In this document: piece after piece, positions 173-25,087 of the stretch | How positions within the stretch are numbered: position 1 is the stretch's first letter | Layout: each line of letters starts with the position of its first letter | IMG/VR virus record: IMGVR_UViG_3300030099_002396 | Span: 1-25,472 of that record | Strand: one strand, 5' to 3' | Origin: a virus | DNA: 25,472 nt | The notes under the pieces: model-generated | Told to the model about the DNA's origin: nothing | Seen by the model: the letters and a program-made list of their open reading frames with translations, nothing else | Databases searched by the model: none | Made by a program: the position numbers and the translations under genes

Positions 173-332
173 ACTGTACGTCTGTTCAGTAGTGAACAGC
201 GTTCAGCAGCGAGGGAGGGTGAACAAGTGTTCAGTACTGTACAGGTGTTCAGTGGTTGGGAGCTACTACTGTACAAGTGTTCACTGCTCATCTGTTCAGT
301 TACTACTGTTCAATACTGATCATCTGTTCAGT
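173..332. repeat. Array of 18-bp palindromic repeats (operator or iteron array)
   Basis: Six copies fit ACTGWACA-NN-TGTTCAGT, an 18-bp palindrome with 8-bp half-sites and a 2-bp centre: 173-190, 218-235, 236-253, 268-285, 283-300 and 315-332. Copies at 218 and 236 are directly adjacent, and copies at 268 and 283 share three bases. The right half-site TGTTCAGT is nearly invariant; the left one varies. Further half-sites or 1-bp-spacer versions lie at 13-20, 45-61, 191-207 and 307-314. A separate perfect dyad CTGTTCA-GTAG-TGAACAG occupies 182-199. Repeated palindromes of this kind usually bind a dimeric HTH protein (operator) or a replication initiator; TerS binding is also possible. Confidence 0.85.
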
Positions 333-9055: not shown

Positions 9056-11127
9056 AAGATACCAATGCGAAAGTAGACAATCTGAAAGGTGTCCATGAAA
9101 ACTATCCTCAACCGATAGAGACATTACAGGAACTTGTAAACTGGCAAGTTGATCAGTACACAGGTGGATGGTCTAATCGTTTGGGATATGAAAGATATGA
9201 CAGTACAGCCAATGACTTTGATCCATTTTTAATCAATCGTGTAGACAGTATGTTTTATGTGCAGCGACATCAAGGCGCACAAGATTCAATACTGTTTGAG
9301 CAGAATGGTTTTTTGTACCAGCTTAATGATTTTGATGGAGTATTAAAAAAGAATGTATTGTCTGAAGGGAGAACACTTCCTCGTTCATCTGAGATAGGTA
9401 CACAGTTTTGCCAGTTTGGTAGATATATAATCTATGCCAATGGATATGACAGGCCCAGTAAATCAAGATTGTGGCCGATTACAGACTATTCTACATCCAA
9501 CTATTTGGTAGAGTACCCATTGGGATTTGATGCAGCACCATCTGCTCCTGTTGCATGGGGAGTACTTAAGACTGCATCATCTCCTGGTAAAAATGAAATC
9601 TCTATAGAGTTTAGTGAAGAACAAAATAAAGGAATGGGGATACTTACTGCTGCAGCACCAAACATGTATAAGTACAAAGTAACGTTTGTAAATACAGCAG
9701 GTGCTGAATCACCATTCAGTTCTTCTAGCAATGTCTCTCAATGGGACTCATCAGGAGGATCAACACAAAGTAGATATGCTATTGGAGTAGAGATTCCAGT
9801 AGGTAATAATGATGTGATTGCTAGACGGATATATCGTACAAAGAACTTTTCATCATCTGGTGGTGCAGATGGTGACACATATTATTTTGTTGCAGAGATA
9901 CCTAATAATGGAGATGATTTTTTTATTGATGACATACCAGATACAGGTTTGGGGAGCCAAGCAGATTCTGAGTTAGAGTCTATACCTTTTCCTGCAATAG
10001 GATGTAGATACTTGGGTAGTTACAAAGATTGTTTATTTATAGATGGTGGTCGTGATGATGACTTGACGTTGTTTTATAGTCATCCTGCAAAGCCGGACCA
10101 GTTTGCAGCATTAAACTTTATTACTCTTTCACATAGAGAAGGTGGTGGACTTACTGGATTGTTTTCATATTTTAATAATCTGTTAGCATTTCGTGAGTAT
10201 AGTATAGACATCATTCGAGGAACATACCCTAACTTTAATGCAACCAACTTGGTAAGGTATATAGGAACAAGAGCAACCAATACTATCGTAGGTGTAGAAG
10301 GACTTGGTGTTTTGTTCTTGAGCTATGATGGAATCTACAGTATCAATATAAACTTGGATTACAATGATCATCCCAATGTTCAAAATGTAACTCCACATTT
10401 ACGTGATACTTTTGAGCGTATTAATAAAGATGCAATATGTAAAGCATCGGCTGTGTATTCAAAAAAGAGAAGAGAATACATTGTGCATTTTCCTGTAGAT
10501 GGAAGTCCTGTAAATAATATGGGATTGGTGTATCATACAGATAAACTTGCATGGTCAATCCGAGAGAACATTCCAGCAGGTCCATTGATTGTAACCTCTA
10601 CAGGTGACGTTATGTTTGGAATGAATGACGGTTCAGTTTCTCCAAACAATGAGCATGGTATTATGGTATTGTCTCGTAAACGTGCAGCAGGAGCAACAAT
10701 AACAGAGGATACAATGACAGACAATCCTCCGTTGACTTCGATAATGCGTAGTGCTTGGTTGGATATGGGAGATCCATCTACCAAGAAGAAGATACATAGT
10801 GTGTATCTTTTCATTGCTACAGGTGGGGACCAAGATATATCGTTGAGTTATTACATGGACTTTAACTACAACAGTCAAGAGCTTACAGAAGCCCTTCGTC
10901 AGCAACGCCCAGATTTTGAAGACCAAGTAGTATATGATAAAGTGATACTTAATAGTGGTGCATACTGGGAAGAACCTTTGGTAACAACGATTCGATATGA
11001 TGTTCATAGTGCAGCATGTTCTCATTTTCAGTGGAAGATAGAGACAAATGCTGATGTACATGTGATAGGATATGCCATAGACTTTACAGGAAATGGTATG
11101 CGAGTCATACAAGGTAAGAAGTTATGA
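9052..11127 (+). CDS. Tail nozzle/hub protein (beta-propeller-like)
   Basis: 691 residues, mostly beta. It begins with an NYPQPIETLQELVNWQVDQYTGGWSNRLG region that resembles the start of podovirus nozzle and hub proteins. Blade-like repeats follow (SMFYVQRHQGAQDSILFEQNGFLYQL near 66-91; LGSYKDCLFIDGG, LFSYFNNLLAFREYSI and LGVLFLSYDGIYSI further on). An Ig/FN3-like insertion at about 204-296 has AESPFSS (218-224) and IARRIYRT (256-263), and resembles the insertion in the adaptor gene just upstream. The likely role is the distal tail tube (compare T7 gp12 or P22 gp10). It starts as ATGA over the adaptor stop. Confidence 0.72.
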   Translation: MKDTNAKVDNLKGVHENYPQPIETLQELVNWQVDQYTGGWSNRLGYERYDSTANDFDPFLINRVDSMFYVQRHQGAQDSILFEQNGFLYQLNDFDGVLKKNVLSEGRTLPRSSEIGTQFCQFGRYIIYANGYDRPSKSRLWPITDYSTSNYLVEYPLGFDAAPSAPVAWGVLKTASSPGKNEISIEFSEEQNKGMGILTAAAPNMYKYKVTFVNTAGAESPFSSSSNVSQWDSSGGSTQSRYAIGVEIPVGNNDVIARRIYRTKNFSSSGGADGDTYYFVAEIPNNGDDFFIDDIPDTGLGSQADSELESIPFPAIGCRYLGSYKDCLFIDGGRDDDLTLFYSHPAKPDQFAALNFITLSHREGGGLTGLFSYFNNLLAFREYSIDIIRGTYPNFNATNLVRYIGTRATNTIVGVEGLGVLFLSYDGIYSININLDYNDHPNVQNVTPHLRDTFERINKDAICKASAVYSKKRREYIVHFPVDGSPVNNMGLVYHTDKLAWSIRENIPAGPLIVTSTGDVMFGMNDGSVSPNNEHGIMVLSRKRAAGATITEDTMTDNPPLTSIMRSAWLDMGDPSTKKKIHSVYLFIATGGDQDISLSYYMDFNYNSQELTEALRQQRPDFEDQVVYDKVILNSGAYWEEPLVTTIRYDVHSAACSHFQWKIETNADVHVIGYAIDFTGNGMRVIQGKKL

Positions 11128-15621: not shown

Positions 15622-18600
15622 ATGGCTACACCACAAACAATAGAAGAAGCAAAAGCAGAGCTGGAAAGATTACAGAAAGCTCTTTCTTCAGGAGAGATTG
15701 ATTTAGCAGAATACGGTAAACAAGTTGGTCCTATAATGGGATTAATGAATATAGCTTTGGAAAGACAGACACAAATAGAAAGACCGATTGGTTCACAAAC
15801 AGCAGAGTTAACTTTAGAACAACCTGATTTAGAACGCAAAGCAAAGTTTGCTCAGGCAAAACGTGAAGCAGAACTGGATGCATTAAGTGGTAAAGAAGAG
15901 GATGTATCTGAGCAGTTTAAACGTGCTACAGAAAAGATAGAGCGTGAGTTGTATCCTCAAAGGTTTGCAACAAAAGAATACATTGAGCCTATACCTGCTT
16001 CTGCTTTTGTGAGTAGAGTACGAGATCCAGTAAAAGGATTAGTACGTGATATAGATACTGGAGAGTTACGAAAGGCAGGTTTTTTAGAACTACTGGGTGA
16101 AGGGATGAAGCGACAGGTGCTTCAGACTCCTAGAACAAAAGTAGAGACAGAACAGGAAGAAGCTCGTCAACGTCGAAACATGGTACAAGATTTAAGAAAA
16201 CGTGGTGTATCAGAAGAACGTATTACGGAACTATTAAATAAATATGATGTTTCTGCTTCAGATCCTTTTACTGTTTTATTAACAAAAGGTATACCAGAAG
16301 AAACAAAAAGATTAAGAAAGTTTCTTCCAGAAGCAAAAGATCCTTTTTCAGCAGGGATACGTGCTTTGGGAGAAACTTTTGAAAGAGATGAAATACAAGA
16401 TAAAGATAAAACACTTGTAGTAGAATCTCCGTTTGAATGGGGTATACGGACATTGGTTAATAGTGGTAGTGCTGCTGTAGCACCCATAATAAAAGAAGCA
16501 CAAGATGTTGTGAGTATGTTAACAGGTGCTCCAGTATCTACACGTAAAGGTGCAGGCTATCAAAAGACAAAACGTGATGAACTTGGAATGCAGTTTATTA
16601 CAAACTTTTTATTGAATCAAGGTGTTTTCACACAGCAACAGGCACAGTTAAATCCACCGGATATAGAATATGATGGTTTGTTTAATATTGCTACACAAGG
16701 TTCAACAGGAAGTTTTCTTACAGGTTTAATGGGAGAAATCGGTGCACCTATAACAGCAGTTGGTGTACCATTTGAAGCAGCAAAACAAATAAAGATGGCT
16801 CAACGATTGGCATCTAAACCATTACGTGCATCTCAGTCAGTAAAAGCACAAAAGGTAGGAAATGCAATCAATAATCCTATTGAAGCTATTCGATACGAGG
16901 GACAGAAAGCAGAGATTGATGCAGCACTTCGATCAGTAGATGAAGGATTGACAACACAAAAGTTAGAGAAAGAGATAGCAGAACAAGGTGGAGTAATCAA
17001 TCGTTCTTCGTTGCGAGAGAAAGCAGCACAGAGAACAGGTGACATTGTAGGTTCTGTTGCAGCATTAAAAACAGCTGTAGAAACTGCTGAAAGACTTGGT
17101 GCTGAAGCAATAAATCTACAGCGTCTAAAGATTCCTCAATCTACTTTTTTAAAAGGATTTTTTGAAGGAGCAGAATCATTGCCTGTTTCAAGGGTAAAAC
17201 AAAAGATTACAAACTTTGAAACACGTTTATCTCAAGTACCTGAAGTAGGAGAAGAGATTATTGCATTACGTAGAGTTAATCAGATTTCAGATGATGTTCG
17301 TGATTTTATTAACTATGGAAAAAAATCTAAAACAGATGCAAAGATTATTAATCGTAATGTTAATAAAGCTCGTTGGATGAATGAAGATATTTGGAAGGCA
17401 GTAGAAAATGATGTGCCTCAATCATTAAAAAAAGATTGGCGTAAAGGTCAAGACCTTACATTAAAAAGTTTTCAAGCACCATTAAAGGCAGATGAGATTG
17501 TTGAACTTGGAAGGATTTGGAAAAAACTAAATGATGCAAATGTTTGGGATAGCATTCCTACCAATCTGAGGACATATAAAAATGTGTATGAATCTGTTCG
17601 AGGTTCAGTTGCAGATGTAATGCGTGATAACTTTTTACGAAACATTCCAGATGATTATATATATGTTTCACAAAATGTAGCTGTACCAATGAAATCATAT
17701 AAGTCTCCTGCATTTGATACATATAAAAATGAGATACAAAAGTTATTAAACTTTAGTCCTCGTGTAGTTGGTGATGAAGTTCGGTTTGTAATAAACAATG
17801 ATAGTTTGAATGCTATAAAACAAAGAATACAAAGAACAGGAATGAAAATACCTGAAGATATAGATCTTCTTGCACCTAAACCATTGACACAATCTCAACT
17901 ACAAAACTTAACTTCGGCTGTATCCGCTGATATAGCGTTGGAGTTGTTAGATGGTGTTCGATTAAAGACTGGAACAATGACTGCTCAAATGGCTCGTATG
18001 CCTGCAGGAACACCTAGACAGACTTTAATAAAGACAGGAAGCACACCAGCTTCTTTCCGTATACAAAGAAAAGGATTTGTTAATGCGTTGCGTTTGATTG
18101 CTTCTGAAAAACCTATATTAAATCAACTGGGTTCAAGGTTATCGAATGGTTTAAAAAAGATGCGTTCAAGTTTTTTTGGTACGCCTACATCTCCTCTTCC
18201 TCCAACTTTGCAAAGATTTTCAGATGATGTTCAACGTGCGCACAATGCAGCAATGGATCAAGTATTAAATCGGTATAAAGAGGCTGCACGTCTTGCAGAC
18301 CCTGGGAAAGAGACAGAAACATTTAATGAGGTATTGCGACAAGATTTAGAAGAGGGTGTACAACAATATAAAGTAAAGATAGATGAGGAGACTATTCGTC
18401 AGGATCTAGCTATTTCTTGGTTGACTGATCCTGGTTTTACACCAGCACAAAAACGTACTCAACAACTTAAAGTTTTAAATACAAAGTATGGTGAAGCAAA
18501 TATAGAAGAGTTTATGCGTGAGCAGAACATAGGCAATACCTATGATGATTTATTGAATAACATAGATTTTATTGAACAAAATATGGAAGTTGTGTTGAAT

Positions 18601-21525
18601 ACTTCTGCGCGTGTTAAGCAGTGGAAATCTGCATTGGATGATTTTTTTACTTCAGGTCCTGGGAAAACTGCTGAAGCAAGATTAAAGATAGGTGAAAGGT
18701 ATTATCAGTATATAGAAGATTTGGTACGTGTAGATTCTCAGATGCCTTTTTGGACACCTGATAATGTGTTGCCTTTGAATGTAGAGAACTTTAAAAAAGT
18801 GATTGAGGAGTTACGAAATAAAGATAAGTTTTTAAAAACGGTTGGATTGTCAGGAATGAAACCTTTGAATCCAACAGAATACTATACACTTCCATTGTTA
18901 AATCGTTCGTTTGAAATACAAAGAATAAAAAATATGCAACAGTCAATCAATCGTTTGATTGATGAATCTCCAGATATGTTTATTGATTTAAATAGAGTAC
19001 ATTCTTTGAACCCTGGATTTAATAATACAAAAACGATTGCAGAAGATCTTACATTTAAAATAAGAGAAACAACAAATCTTGCAGTCAAAGAAGGACTTTT
19101 AAAAGAAGAAGCTATAAATACTCTTAGTCATCAAATAAAAGAATATTTGTTTGATGGTTTTGCAAAAGACTTATGGAGAAATAGTAGCAGAAAAGTACAA
19201 AAAGCTTTTTTTGAACAATACTTAACAACTATGATTCGAACAGAAAGTGCTATTGTAAAAGATATGGATGAGTTTATTACAGCTTTATATAGCAATAACA
19301 TTTTTAAAAGCAATACTTTTACGCGTATAGAAAACAAAGCACAACAAGTTATTGATGAGGTAAATAAAACATTTTTTGAAATGCGGCAATCTCCAGAACA
19401 AATGGGTTTTCCTGAGATGGGAAAGGTAACATCTTTAGAAGAACAGATAAATATTATTGCTGAACTTGAAAAAAATCTACCTAAGATTGTACAAGATATG
19501 AAGATAGATTATCTTCGAGGTCTTGTATTAAAGACTGATGGAATCTTTGATGGATTGTTTAGTCAGCAGTTGGCAGCAACAAATAAATACTTTGCTCAGT
19601 ATGGTGCAAATAGTGATTCACTTGTTACTGCAATGACAGAGTTGTCTCCAAGATTTAGATACATAGGCTCTAAGAATCTTGCAATCATCTATGGTGCAGA
19701 CATAGAGAAGCAAATCAATCAGTTATTAGATATGGTCGACAACACAAGTTCTTCGCAACTTAGTAGGTATTTTGATCAGTTGGCTAACTACAAACAAACA
19801 GATCTTTTTACTTTTAGTTATATTGGGTATTTTCTTAAAGAAGCATGGGCTATGGGTAGACGTTGGGCTATATCAAACATGTTGGGTGGTGCATATGACT
19901 TAGCTCTACGGTATTTTGGTGTAAATACTTTTACTGCTCCTGCAATATACTTGACTACATTGGGTGATTCTTCAATGAAAGCAAGTACTTTTACTAAGTT
20001 TACACGTTCTGCTTTTACAGGAGGTACAGAAGTTGTAGCAGAAAACTTAGCAAGTCGAATAGGATTTAGTACAGGAGTAAATAGCAATAAGTATTTGTAT
20101 GCACCAGCTGAAGAAGTAATCATAAAAGCTCAACCTGGAGGAGCAGTACGTGATTATACAGCAGGTGAACTTCGAGCATTGACAGAAGAGTATGGTATAA
20201 ACTTTAGTCGTGCTGATGCAGATTTTTATGATACTCAGTTTTCAAGATTTTTGGTAGATACAAAGTTGAATCCAGATGGTTCTTCTCGTTATGGAAAACC
20301 TTGGTTAAGTTTTATACCTAGTAGTATTAGAAAAAGAATGTGGGACAATATATCTCCATCTAGGCGTAATGTATTTACAGAGGTAGGTAGATTACAAGAT
20401 ACACAACAAAGACGATTGGTATTTATAGATGCTCTTGAAAATGGAGAAACAGTAGGACAAGCAGCAGAAAAAGCAAGACGTTCTATTTTAGATTACAACT
20501 CTCTTTCATCTTTTGAAAAGCAAAAGATTGTTCCTATAATATACTTTTATCCATTTATGAGAACAATGGGTGCAGAAGTTATTAATGCGTTTTATCGTGG
20601 AGTAACATCAGGAAACAATATACCATTTAAAGTATTGCAAGTTCAAAATGCATTGAATCGACAAATGTCAGAACATTATGTGGACCAACAAGATGAACTT
20701 AAGAAACGTTTTTTTAATGTATATAATGGAACAGTAGATGGTGTGGACTTGTATGCAGGTGGTATGATGAATCCACAGGTAGACATGTTTGATATGATGT
20801 GTAGAAGTGCATTGGTTATTGCAAGTGGTTTTGAAGAAGATCCTTTTGTGCGTACAACAGAACAAAGATTAATGAAGATTAGTGCTGCCTTTATGTTGGC
20901 AGGTACAAAAGCATTAAAGACAACGATTGAAGGTAATCCCTTTTTTGGATTGGCATTAGAATCATATAATGTAGATTGGGGTAGAAGACCTATACCATTT
21001 CCATCTGAACTTATACTTGAAGCAGAGTCTGCAGGAAGATTGCCAGAGCTTGTAAAAATGTATGGATTGGTAAAACGACCGTACAAAACAGTTGGTAGAC
21101 CTTTGAGTTCACAAGGTGATTATTGGGATTTTCCTAAAACTGATAAGGGATTGGAAAGTTATCGTTCTTATTTATTTCATAGAGTAATCGGTCTTACTGC
21201 GTTTAATATAATCGCATACAAGGGAGGATGGGTAGCTGCACAATCACGTGGTCAAAAGGAAGTTACACGAGCAAACATATATTCTCGTCAGGATTTAACA
21301 ATCACAGATCCCAATGATCCAACGAAGACAATCACAATCAAAGATTTTACATCATATGCAAAGGCAATCGGTAGAGGAGAGTTGCAGTTATCACCAAATG
21401 TATTGTATACATTATATCGTTTGGGCCAGACTCCAATGAAGAGTGTTCCTATAGAACAAGTGGAAGAAAGAATCCTACGTGATATAGATAGAACATTAAA
21501 AAATAAGTTGCCTAAAAAGGAATAA
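15622..21525 (+). CDS. Giant internal virion (ejection) protein, gp16-like
   Basis: The largest gene here, 1967 residues against 1318 in T7 gp16. It is helical and charged through most of its length, with a coiled-coil-like N-terminus (IEEAKAELERLQKALSSGEI). A more hydrophobic region lies near 1403-1455 (AWAMGRRWAISNMLGGAYDL, then FTAPAIYLTTLG), which could be membrane-active. I saw no lysozyme or lytic transglycosylase signature of the kind found at the N-terminus of T7 gp16. The likely role is to form the periplasmic part of the DNA-ejection channel. A tape measure is less likely because no tail-tube genes precede it and fibre genes follow. The start lies one base after the preceding stop. 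Confidence 0.75.
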   Translation: MATPQTIEEAKAELERLQKALSSGEIDLAEYGKQVGPIMGLMNIALERQTQIERPIGSQTAELTLEQPDLERKAKFAQAKREAELDALSGKEEDVSEQFKRATEKIERELYPQRFATKEYIEPIPASAFVSRVRDPVKGLVRDIDTGELRKAGFLELLGEGMKRQVLQTPRTKVETEQEEARQRRNMVQDLRKRGVSEERITELLNKYDVSASDPFTVLLTKGIPEETKRLRKFLPEAKDPFSAGIRALGETFERDEIQDKDKTLVVESPFEWGIRTLVNSGSAAVAPIIKEAQDVVSMLTGAPVSTRKGAGYQKTKRDELGMQFITNFLLNQGVFTQQQAQLNPPDIEYDGLFNIATQGSTGSFLTGLMGEIGAPITAVGVPFEAAKQIKMAQRLASKPLRASQSVKAQKVGNAINNPIEAIRYEGQKAEIDAALRSVDEGLTTQKLEKEIAEQGGVINRSSLREKAAQRTGDIVGSVAALKTAVETAERLGAEAINLQRLKIPQSTFLKGFFEGAESLPVSRVKQKITNFETRLSQVPEVGEEIIALRRVNQISDDVRDFINYGKKSKTDAKIINRNVNKARWMNEDIWKAVENDVPQSLKKDWRKGQDLTLKSFQAPLKADEIVELGRIWKKLNDANVWDSIPTNLRTYKNVYESVRGSVADVMRDNFLRNIPDDYIYVSQNVAVPMKSYKSPAFDTYKNEIQKLLNFSPRVVGDEVRFVINNDSLNAIKQRIQRTGMKIPEDIDLLAPKPLTQSQLQNLTSAVSADIALELLDGVRLKTGTMTAQMARMPAGTPRQTLIKTGSTPASFRIQRKGFVNALRLIASEKPILNQLGSRLSNGLKKMRSSFFGTPTSPLPPTLQRFSDDVQRAHNAAMDQVLNRYKEAARLADPGKETETFNEVLRQDLEEGVQQYKVKIDEETIRQDLAISWLTDPGFTPAQKRTQQLKVLNTKYGEANIEEFMREQNIGNTYDDLLNNIDFIEQNMEVVLNTSARVKQWKSALDDFFTSGPGKTAEARLKIGERYYQYIEDLVRVDSQMPFWTPDNVLPLNVENFKKVIEELRNKDKFLKTVGLSGMKPLNPTEYYTLPLLNRSFEIQRIKNMQQSINRLIDESPDMFIDLNRVHSLNPGFNNTKTIAEDLTFKIRETTNLAVKEGLLKEEAINTLSHQIKEYLFDGFAKDLWRNSSRKVQKAFFEQYLTTMIRTESAIVKDMDEFITALYSNNIFKSNTFTRIENKAQQVIDEVNKTFFEMRQSPEQMGFPEMGKVTSLEEQINIIAELEKNLPKIVQDMKIDYLRGLVLKTDGIFDGLFSQQLAATNKYFAQYGANSDSLVTAMTELSPRFRYIGSKNLAIIYGADIEKQINQLLDMVDNTSSSQLSRYFDQLANYKQTDLFTFSYIGYFLKEAWAMGRRWAISNMLGGAYDLALRYFGVNTFTAPAIYLTTLGDSSMKASTFTKFTRSAFTGGTEVVAENLASRIGFSTGVNSNKYLYAPAEEVIIKAQPGGAVRDYTAGELRALTEEYGINFSRADADFYDTQFSRFLVDTKLNPDGSSRYGKPWLSFIPSSIRKRMWDNISPSRRNVFTEVGRLQDTQQRRLVFIDALENGETVGQAAEKARRSILDYNSLSSFEKQKIVPIIYFYPFMRTMGAEVINAFYRGVTSGNNIPFKVLQVQNALNRQMSEHYVDQQDELKKRFFNVYNGTVDGVDLYAGGMMNPQVDMFDMMCRSALVIASGFEEDPFVRTTEQRLMKISAAFMLAGTKALKTTIEGNPFFGLALESYNVDWGRRPIPFPSELILEAESAGRLPELVKMYGLVKRPYKTVGRPLSSQGDYWDFPKTDKGLESYRSYLFHRVIGLTAFNIIAYKGGWVAAQSRGQKEVTRANIYSRQDLTITDPNDPTKTITIKDFTSYAKAIGRGELQLSPNVLYTLYRLGQTPMKSVPIEQVEERILRDIDRTLKNKLPKKE

Positions 21526-23116: not shown

Positions 23117-23350
23117 ATGGATAAAGAGAAACTGATTGGCTTAATATTGGGACAGGGTGGTGCAACAGTATTGGCGTGTATTGCTCTTTGGTACATTTCT
23201 CAGTTGTATGTTGAGCAAATACAGACTATGATGGAAAAGTGTGATGGTGATCGAATCATGTACCAGCTACACATTGAAAAGCTATCATTAAAACTAGATG
23301 ATATATCAACAGATGTTAAAGATATAAAAGATGCCCAAGCAGATAAATAA
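23117..23350 (+). CDS. One-helix membrane protein, candidate holin
   Basis: 77 residues from the ATG at 23117, which has GAGG at 23107-23110; an ATG at 23105 touches the terminator T-tract and lacks a ribosome-binding site. Residues about 3-27 form a single hydrophobic helix (LIGLILGQGGATVLACIALW), followed by a charged coiled coil (QIQTMMEKCDGDRIMYQLHI and KLSLKLDDISTDVKDIK). A short one-span protein near an amidase gene suits a small holin such as T7 gp17.5, but a spanin-like or other membrane role is not excluded. It overlaps the next gene by 20 bases. Confidence 0.7.
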   Translation: MDKEKLIGLILGQGGATVLACIALWYISQLYVEQIQTMMEKCDGDRIMYQLHIEKLSLKLDDISTDVKDIKDAQADK

Positions 23351-23642
23351 AAAAAACATGAAATGTAACTCTCCAAGAGCTTTACGAAAAGGAGAACCAG
23401 GTTACGGGAAGAAGAAGAAGGTAGTGCTTGGATGTAAATCTGGTAGACAAAAGCTCATAAAGTATGGAGCAAAAGGATACGAGCACAACTATTCTGATTC
23501 TGCCAAGTCATCATTTCGCGCACGACACAAATGCTCATCGAAGAAAGATCCAACTACAGCAGGCTATTGGGCTTGCAAAGATCTTTGGCCTGGTGGAAAG
23601 AAAACAAAAAGACCTGGTGCAAAGAAGAAGACAAGGAGATAA
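23331..23642 (+). CDS. Very basic Cys-containing protein (marine phage family, function unknown)
   Basis: 103 residues, rich in Lys, Arg and Gly. Four Cys (12, 35, 68, 82) lie in KCNSPR, VVLGCKSG, SFRARHKCSS and YWACKDLW. This pattern (basic 'KKKVV.GCK.G..KLI.YG', then 'SFRARHKC', then 'YWACK.LW') I recognise from small uncharacterised proteins of marine phages. The Cys residues may bind zinc, and the basic tail could bind nucleic acid; both are inference. The ATG at 23331 lies inside the preceding gene; an in-frame ATG at 23358 is an alternative start and removes nine residues. Neither has a good ribosome-binding site. Confidence 0.75.
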   Translation: MPKQINKKNMKCNSPRALRKGEPGYGKKKKVVLGCKSGRQKLIKYGAKGYEHNYSDSAKSSFRARHKCSSKKDPTTAGYWACKDLWPGGKKTKRPGAKKKTRR

Positions 23643-24008: not shown

Positions 24009-24423
24009 GCGTACCATACGTAGAATCATAATCCATCATAGTGCAAGTCCAGTATCTACAACGGTAGAAGACATTGACCGCTGGCATAAGGAACGTGGCT
24101 GGCGTGGTATTGGGTATCACTTTGTATGTCTTGAGGATGGGACGATTGCTCCAGGAAGACATATCAATAAACGTGGTGCACATACTAAAGGTGAAAACTA
24201 TGACAGCATTGGACTTTGTGTAACTGGTAACTTCCAAGACTACCATTGTCCTAAACCTAGGTTTGATAAGTTGATGGCTTTTGTTGGTGAACTTATCGAA
24301 AAGTATGATTTATCGTGGGACCATGTTTTTTATCACAAGCAGTTTGCGAACACGTTATGTTGTGGTCATTTTCTTATCGAGCAGATAAAGCAATATATGA
24401 AGGGAAGACGTGGTCAATGTTGA
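23995..24423 (+). CDS. N-acetylmuramoyl-L-alanine amidase (T7 lysozyme-type endolysin)
   Basis: 142 residues, close to T7 lysozyme (about 150). It should cut the amide bond between MurNAc and the stem peptide at lysis. Zinc ligands: His14 (IIIHHS), His114 (FYHKQF) and Cys122; the His-to-Cys spacing of eight matches T7 His122/Cys130. Tyr41 in GYHF matches T7 Tyr46. The T7 Lys128 position is Thr120, as in animal peptidoglycan-recognition amidases. The usual CPG after the ligand is CCG. The ATG at 23995 (GAGG upstream) is preferred to a TTG one codon earlier. There is no signal peptide, so export needs a holin. It overlaps both neighbours. Confidence 0.93.
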   Translation: MPRGKRTIRRIIIHHSASPVSTTVEDIDRWHKERGWRGIGYHFVCLEDGTIAPGRHINKRGAHTKGENYDSIGLCVTGNFQDYHCPKPRFDKLMAFVGELIEKYDLSWDHVFYHKQFANTLCCGHFLIEQIKQYMKGRRGQC

Positions 24424-24746
24424 AGAAGTTTTTAAAGAGTCATCTTGCACATGGTGAGCTCAAGAAGATTGCTATACGTGCAGGCATCCATCAGAACAGT
24501 GTGTATGCATGGGTGAAGGGACGCAACCAACCGTCGGTTGTGTCTCTTATATGGTTCTTTCGTGCATTGGCTGAGATAAAAGAGAAGGACTATGTGTTAT
24601 TATGGATAGAGTATTTGTTCACCCTGGAGGGTAGTAAGGATGCCAGTAAAGAAGTACAAGAGTGGTTACAAAGTGTCAGGTACAAAGACCAAGAAACCAA
24701 TGACAAAGAAGAAAGCAGTCAAGCAACAGAAAGCAATCTACGCTAG
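24417..24746 (+). CDS. XRE-like helix-turn-helix protein
   Basis: 109 residues from the ATG at 24417, overlapping the amidase stop by seven bases; an ATG 102 bases earlier would lie in another frame of the amidase gene and is rejected. Residues 3-45 look like a Cro/CI-type HTH: LKKIAIRAG (15-23) then NSVYAWVKGRNQPS (27-40). The middle is hydrophobic and helical (DYVLLWIEYLFTLEG) and suits dimerisation; the C-terminus is acidic and polar. It may be a late regulator. Its last 107 bases are also read in another frame by the next gene. Confidence 0.75.
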   Translation: MLKKFLKSHLAHGELKKIAIRAGIHQNSVYAWVKGRNQPSVVSLIWFFRALAEIKEKDYVLLWIEYLFTLEGSKDASKEVQEWLQSVRYKDQETNDKEESSQATESNLR

Positions 24747-24768
24747 GAAGAAACGTGGCAAAAGATAG
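24640..24768 (+). CDS. Very basic 42-residue protein, overlapping gene
   Basis: ATG at 24640 to TAG at 24766-24768, read in a different frame from the HTH gene over 107 bases and overlapping the next start by 14 bases. GGAGG lies at 24626-24630. The peptide is extremely Lys/Arg-rich: it starts MPVKKYKSGYKVSG, continues KTKKPMTKKKAVKQQKA and ends ARKKRGKR. Such short basic proteins commonly accompany DUF5872-type genes in aquatic viruses, as far as I recall. Nucleic-acid binding is the obvious guess. Confidence 0.72.
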   Translation: MPVKKYKSGYKVSGTKTKKPMTKKKAVKQQKAIYARKKRGKR

Positions 24769-25087
24769 CTGTTACAAGAAGGTCAAGAAGTCTTACAAGA
24801 AGTTCCCAAGTGCACGTGCAAGTCAGGCCATAGCCAAGTGTCGAAAGGGTAAAGGAAAGGTACGCAAAACAAAAGCCGGAACATCCTTGAAACGTTGGGA
24901 AAAGGAGAAGTGGGTAGATACACGTACAGGAAAATCGTGTGGTGCAAAGACTAACAAGAAACAGTATTGCAGACCTACCAAAAAAGTCTCAAGCAAAACT
25001 CCAAAGACTGCATCACAAATATCTCCAGCGAAGAAGCGAGCCAACATCCGAAGAAAGTCTCAGGGAAAACGAGCCAAGAAAGCGTAG
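24755..25087 (+). CDS. DUF5872-like basic protein
   Basis: 110 residues with a GTG start at 24755. It is rich in Lys and Arg (histone-like composition). Landmarks: ARASQAIAKCRKGKGKV, SLKRWEKEKWVDTRTGKSCG (46-65), KKQYCRPTKKVSSKTPKT and a C-terminal SPAKKRANIRRKSQGKRAKK. The RW.KEKWVD...GK.CG...YCRP..KV..KTPKT pattern is, to my memory, that of DUF5872, found in algal viruses and marine phages with no known function. DNA or RNA binding is plausible. It is the last plus-strand gene; its TAG directly abuts the stop of the convergent gene. Confidence 0.78.
   Translation: MAKDSCYKKVKKSYKKFPSARASQAIAKCRKGKGKVRKTKAGTSLKRWEKEKWVDTRTGKSCGAKTNKKQYCRPTKKVSSKTPKTASQISPAKKRANIRRKSQGKRAKKA

Follow-up and report, generated by a model that had tools for sequence, protein, structure and literature searches.

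We analysed a linear IMG/VR record of 25,472 nt (IMGVR_UViG_3300030099_002396, positions 1 to 25,472), which we call the window; it holds the late part of a viral genome, from a family of uncultured marine viruses of bacteria. Its left end falls inside an intergenic gap, and the genes that follow run in the order RusA, TerS, TerL, portal, capsid and later genes. The rightward late operon starts with a RusA-type resolvase gene (513-965, + strand), followed by genes for a TerS-like HTH protein (967-1344, +) and TerL (1341-2885, +). A Cro-like HTH protein that occurs family-wide is encoded at 24417-24746 (+); its HTH was read by eye, and PHROGs gave no match to the protein, nor Pfam to the longer frame at 24315-24746. 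Small lysine/cysteine-rich proteins, one of them a DUF5872 protein, are encoded towards the end of this operon (23331-23642 and 24755-25087), similarly in the relative G012.

A search with TerL as the query found 16 close relatives and then 57 wider ones, all uncultured. Three of the genomes, G001, G002 and G003, are complete and circular-mapping, with sizes of 31-33.5 kb; their ends overlap by 98-99 exact bases, which suggests circular assembly and not mapped termini, and fixed genome ends were therefore rejected as the explanation for the contig ends. In the complete relatives, the gap spans ~930-970 bp between the late operon and a leftward early operon, outside the window, that encodes an RHH protein and then a 747-aa VapE-type primase-helicase. 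The gap, described in an earlier sequence-only reading as the only large non-coding stretch, is thus larger than the window shows, beginning to the left of base 1. A possible adenine-type DNA methyltransferase-like insert, recognised by eye, lies between TerL and portal in G003 (25485-26204), and a C5 methylase gene follows the late HTH gene in G002 (17710-18618). Deposited phages gave no nucleotide match to the window, a phage collection gave no match to the portal protein, and GTDB genomes held no TerL relative, and hence no prophage relative by TerL.

Palindrome classes in the gap

Six 18-bp palindromes lie at 173-332, as the sequence-only reading had reported, and match the pattern ACTGWACANNTGTWCAGT: P1 (173-190, one mismatch), P2 (218-235, two), P3 (236-253, none), an extra copy (268-285, one), a site 47 bp after P3 (283-300, two) and a last site (315-332, one). 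P2 abuts P3 exactly, and the sites at 268-285 and 283-300 share 3 bp, again as reported. With up to three mismatches allowed, a cut-off that, like that for the second class below, was chosen after the sites had been inspected, these six are the sole matches in the whole 25.5-kb window, while dinucleotide shuffles (n=100) held a mean of 0.83 sites and a maximum of 4, with six reached in 0/100. The class, which we call P, can be written ACTGWACA-NN-YGTTCAGT, with a 2-bp centre and with certain columns that accept W, R or Y. Its right half, TGTTCAGT, is nearly invariant across the six sites; the left half is variable, and one copy only is exact.

Further half-sites had been noted in the same region, and these mostly belong to full palindromes of a second class, Q (NYGAACA-S-TGTTCRN), which has a 1-bp centre. 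Q-class palindromes lie at 4-20 (GCTAAACACTGTTCAGT, covering the half-site at 13-20), at 45-61 (GGTGAACACTGTTCGGT) and at 191-207 (Q1, AGTGAACAGCGTTCAGC), and a weak site with three mismatches, containing the half-site CTGTTCAAT, lies at 298-314. The separation of the two classes is evident from the intergenic regions of 13 relatives, where 24 convergent TGAACA/TGTTCA pairs have a spacing of 1 and 29 have a spacing of 2, against 0.1-0.2 expected, with zero observed at spacings 0 and 3. A third palindrome, class B (CTACT-N4-AGTAG-ATTA), was read from the sequence at 94-113 and 139-159.

From the early to the late side, the gap contains AT-rich DNA with direct repeats of TGAACA, class B, the P/Q array and then a G/C-rich inverted repeat, an A-tract and an extended -10. 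The motif TGAACA is 13-40 fold denser in the gap than elsewhere; in relatives its direct repeats lie upstream of the array at 8-11 bp steps around an AT-rich stretch, a part that is cut off in the window. The G/C-rich inverted repeat (GGGGTACCCCCCCAAA ... TTTGGGG; 338-377), which includes TTGACA at 357-362, is conserved across the family in the alignment. The probable -10 of the late promoter (447-452, + strand; extended, TGTTATACT) is likewise conserved in the alignment and begins about 115 bp past the end of the array; a promoter scan scored no better than shuffles.

Retention and replacement of the array

Most relatives keep the array in position. The common layout is P1 Q1 P2 P3 Q2 P4, in which the P sites are about 47, 18 and 47 bp apart, and the window has extra P copies. 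Across 36 loci, there are 53 P sites per 58 kb upstream of TerL and 10 per 312 kb elsewhere. P-like sites are found at the matching place, just before a C-rich block, in some distant relatives (L112 and L125, 54-56% TerL identity), and viral contigs outside the family have few matches to the pattern. The array is missing from some close relatives (L006/G002, L007 and L014). Since some relatives with conserved genes, though not most, lack the palindromes, the array, though real, is dispensable or replaceable.

The repeat classes come and go independently. G002 keeps the iterons and Q sites and has no P site anywhere in its gap, and L007 likewise has Q and no P. Conversely, L009 has four P sites and no exact Q, and G012 and L098 keep P, lack Q and have direct repeats changed to GACAACAG; P palindromes therefore do not covary with iterons. 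In L091, many Q sites accompany iterons changed to CGGAACA. The sequence-only reading had taken the conserved half-site to imply one dimeric binding protein, and a single binder for all sites is made doubtful by the independent loss of P, Q and iterons.

Other repeats occupy the spot of the array in several relatives. L016 has five TTGACAATCTGTCA-like copies about -1150 to -1030 from TerL, and L014 has a TTTGGCACGCTCTTTGCAACTGCAAGARCCATGCCA repeat about -1064 to -990 from TerL. In the gap of G002, class-B palindromes are amplified to about eight copies. L127 (6300-6400), L110, L114 and L116 (53-55% TerL identity) have tandem TTATTCACAGG repeats resembling DnaA boxes, which in L127 lie before the C-rich block, equivalent to the spot of the P array. 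Arrays of several kinds (P, Q, class B, DnaA-like and GACAACAG iterons) are thus exchanged at one spot, a small natural series in which changes of origin and switch specificity could be studied.

Resemblance to LexA operators

The P sites resemble the annotated LexA motif of deltaproteobacteria, CTRHAMRYBYGTTCAGS (PMC2248561). Scored on the better strand against this delta/Myxococcus consensus, which may not be that of the host, the six sites in order match 16, 16 (P2, with 14 on its other strand), 15, 14, 15 and 15 of 17 positions; G011 holds a 17/17 site, and Q sites score 9-11. The phage sites share with delta/Myxococcus LexA boxes a 16-17 bp near-palindrome, a GTTCAG right half and W/R/Y at the same columns. 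They differ in that the phage gap holds 4-6 copies at fixed spacing, at least 115 bp from the predicted promoter.

P-type sites also occur in bacteria. Scanning GTDB for ACTGTACANNTGTTCAGT yielded 54 loci, many of them in Myxococcota/delta genomes and some beside recA, a LexA gene or a dnaE2-like gene. A looser pattern, CTGWACANNYGTTCAG, had 67 occurrences in 141 Myxococcota-phylum genomes, of which 33 held a match, compared with 4 for a reversed control, and about 13 in 200 Pseudomonadota genomes, compared with 3, where both samples include centre genomes picked for holding a match and take their phylum names from the record titles of those genomes. At about nine of the 20 myxococcal loci that we fetched, the site adjoins recA, imuA-like (RecA-fold), recN-like, dnaE2-like or radical-SAM genes. 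Given the enrichment over the control and the repair-gene neighbours, P-type sites in those Myxococcota-phylum bacteria are very probably genuine SOS boxes.

We propose, with a probability of about 0.4, that the P palindromes form an SOS-type operator cluster that gates the late genes beside a predicted origin. The P sites would be operators of the SOS-box type on which LexA acts in Myxococcota and in other bacteria once classed as deltaproteobacteria, placed in the divergent early/late control region and adjoining the predicted iteron origin. The host LexA or a LexA-like protein would coat the cluster and keep the late operon (RusA-TerS-TerL onward) silent, until DNA damage or replication stress strips LexA off and the late genes are turned on. 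We infer LexA as the binder, a host with this type of LexA, in which the P sites would themselves serve as SOS boxes, and an effect on late transcription; the phage may read its host's damage alarm.

There is a precedent in the Bacillus phage GIL01, in which repression of the late promoter P3 takes place at tandem LexA boxes (PMC6182141). We count as a likeness to the family that GIL01 is a non-integrating phage with a late promoter repressed in this way, and that it has several LexA boxes in its control regions (PMC6182141, PMC4551915). By contrast, GIL01 is a linear extrachromosomal Bacillus replicon that uses a helper, gp7, and an activator, gp6; we identified no counterpart of gp7 or gp6 in the family, and saw no phage-encoded LexA homologue there.

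Several observations weigh against LexA control. The 115 bp from the array to the predicted late -10 is far for a classical LexA block. P, Q and the iterons have the half-site TGTTCA in common, for which a single phage binder would be the simpler explanation. The DnaA-box-like repeats at the same spot in L127 and others point to an origin role. Distant capsid relatives, weak in both phyla, are commoner in Pseudomonadota (9/299) than in Myxococcota (2/284), counts that lean only slightly against a myxococcal host. Moreover, at least 17 LexA motifs have been reported (PMC8565304), and the probability of a chance match of P to one of many such motifs is not negligible. With the predicted promoter 115 bp away, the half-site shared with Q and iterons, and several LexA motifs available, we regard the LexA match as suggestive and not conclusive.

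Replication origin and phage-encoded binders as alternatives

Three functions had been suggested for the array from the sequence: an origin, an operator cluster or a TerS packaging site. The first fits the surrounding region, the second fits the array best, and the third is disfavoured. We take the gap as the probable origin region, where the P array may contribute to initiation. The main alternative, possible if on balance less likely than not, is that the array itself belongs to the replication origin as an origin-proximal element, or is the operator that controls it, with the primase-helicase or an initiator of like specificity binding TGAACA both as direct iterons and in the inverted repeats of the array, by analogy with iteron plasmids that have operator inverted repeats and with lambda O and its palindromic iterons. 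Features typical of origins are present: the family has its own primase-helicase (PF05272, E 2e-64), which ends in a predicted winged helix, a candidate DNA-binding domain, and iteron sets flank the AT-rich stretch in relatives, where the enrichment of TGAACA and its regular direct repeats fit this role. The DnaA-box-like repeats of L127, at the spot of the array, likewise favour an origin.

The closest likeness is to satellite phage P4, whose ori/crr type 1 iterons share the TGAACA core (annotated ori type 1 repeat, TGTTCACC) and mixed orientation, with an ori that also lies between divergent operons and with alpha as an early primase-helicase. L015 shares the 25-mer AGGTGAACAGAGGTGAACAGTAAAA with the P4 ori; it lies about 1250 bases upstream of TerL, with its P4 counterpart near 9396-9413. 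The likeness has limits, since P4 repeats are mostly direct or scattered, and the family's P palindromes are separable from iterons. The family protein is VapE-type and has no detectable sequence homology to P4 alpha, and homology between the two was rejected for want of a profile match. A fold search with the C-terminal region of the primase-helicase returned generic winged helices among the matches listed, and the P4 origin-binding domain was absent among these; the full-length model was too poor to use (mean pLDDT 52.7), and tblastn with the C-terminal domain alone gave no useful match in phages. As for lambda, its iterons are inverted repeats (PMC5043065), and both systems have tandem inverted repeats of ~18-19 bp thought to bind dimers; unlike those of lambda, which lie inside the initiator gene, the family's repeats are intergenic, in DNA of 45-50% GC with no clear AT-rich melt region close by, and we identified no lambda O homologue in the family.

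An automatic scan of cultured phages adds to the case for an origin near such primase-helicases. The densest k-mer cluster lay beside the VapE-type gene in five of nine (Staphylococcus phi2, Paenibacillus Lena, Streptococcus IPP36, Pseudomonas LPPA36 and Marinobacter PS3), and the scan detected no such cluster by the gene in Bacteroides BT03, Parabacteroides PM116P6, Corynebacterium Stiles and Burkholderia Mica. The iteron arrays by VapE-type genes in cultured phages are likely to be unannotated origins. In SaPI Rep and Cch2, iterons are bound by the C-terminal domain (PMC7581432). Phage-specific iteron arrays by a VapE-type gene were seen in L132 (39921-40186), L133 (35148-35403), L134 (11101-11354), L136 (10977-11141) and L140 (11043-11316). 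The link between VapE-type primase-helicases and adjacent iterons makes origin finding testable for many phages. What separates the array from this origin is its independence: P persists with GACAACAG iterons and Q with CGGAACA, so the classes do not covary, and G002 must still replicate, yet has no P.

We consider it unlikely that the palindromes serve an early/late switch as operators of a phage regulator, such as the Cro-like HTH protein (24417-24746) or the RHH protein. The gap does separate divergent operons, both proteins are conserved family-wide, the pairing of RHH and primase-helicase mirrors orf56/orf904 of pRN1, and relatives carry differing palindrome arrays at one spot, as immunity operators would. 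However, G002 lacks P sites, yet its HTH protein has exactly the recognition region of the window phage, and the DNA-binding strand of the RHH protein does not differ among G001, G002 and G003. The HTH protein, named in the sequence-only reading as a possible binder, is universal in the family and has the same recognition helix with or without P, and hence no specific tie to the array. No genuine gene is common to the P-bearing genomes and absent from G002, and none has the phyletic pattern of P. Because TerS and the DNA-binding regions of the HTH and RHH proteins are unchanged in G002 and no gene tracks P, a host-encoded binder is favoured.

A host binder could also act in another way, which we consider quite improbable: the array could be a copy-number sensor, in which replicated genomes with 4-6 boxes each titrate the host LexA, so that firing of the adjacent origin would turn on late and host repair genes together, only after replication begins and with no need for a phage repressor. 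Least probable is a TerS recognition site (pac or cosB-like). The array does lie just upstream of the RusA-TerS-TerL genes, and an HTH is predicted in TerS, but the protein is 100% identical in G002 and 86% identical in L007, neither of which has P palindromes, and TerS was rejected as the binder.

If the P palindromes are indeed SOS-type operators bound by the host LexA, an uncultured marine phage family would leave its late switch to the DNA-damage repressor of its host. Few studied phages use the host repressor in this way, GIL01 being the best case. The type of box would then narrow down a host that the sequence alone does not reveal.
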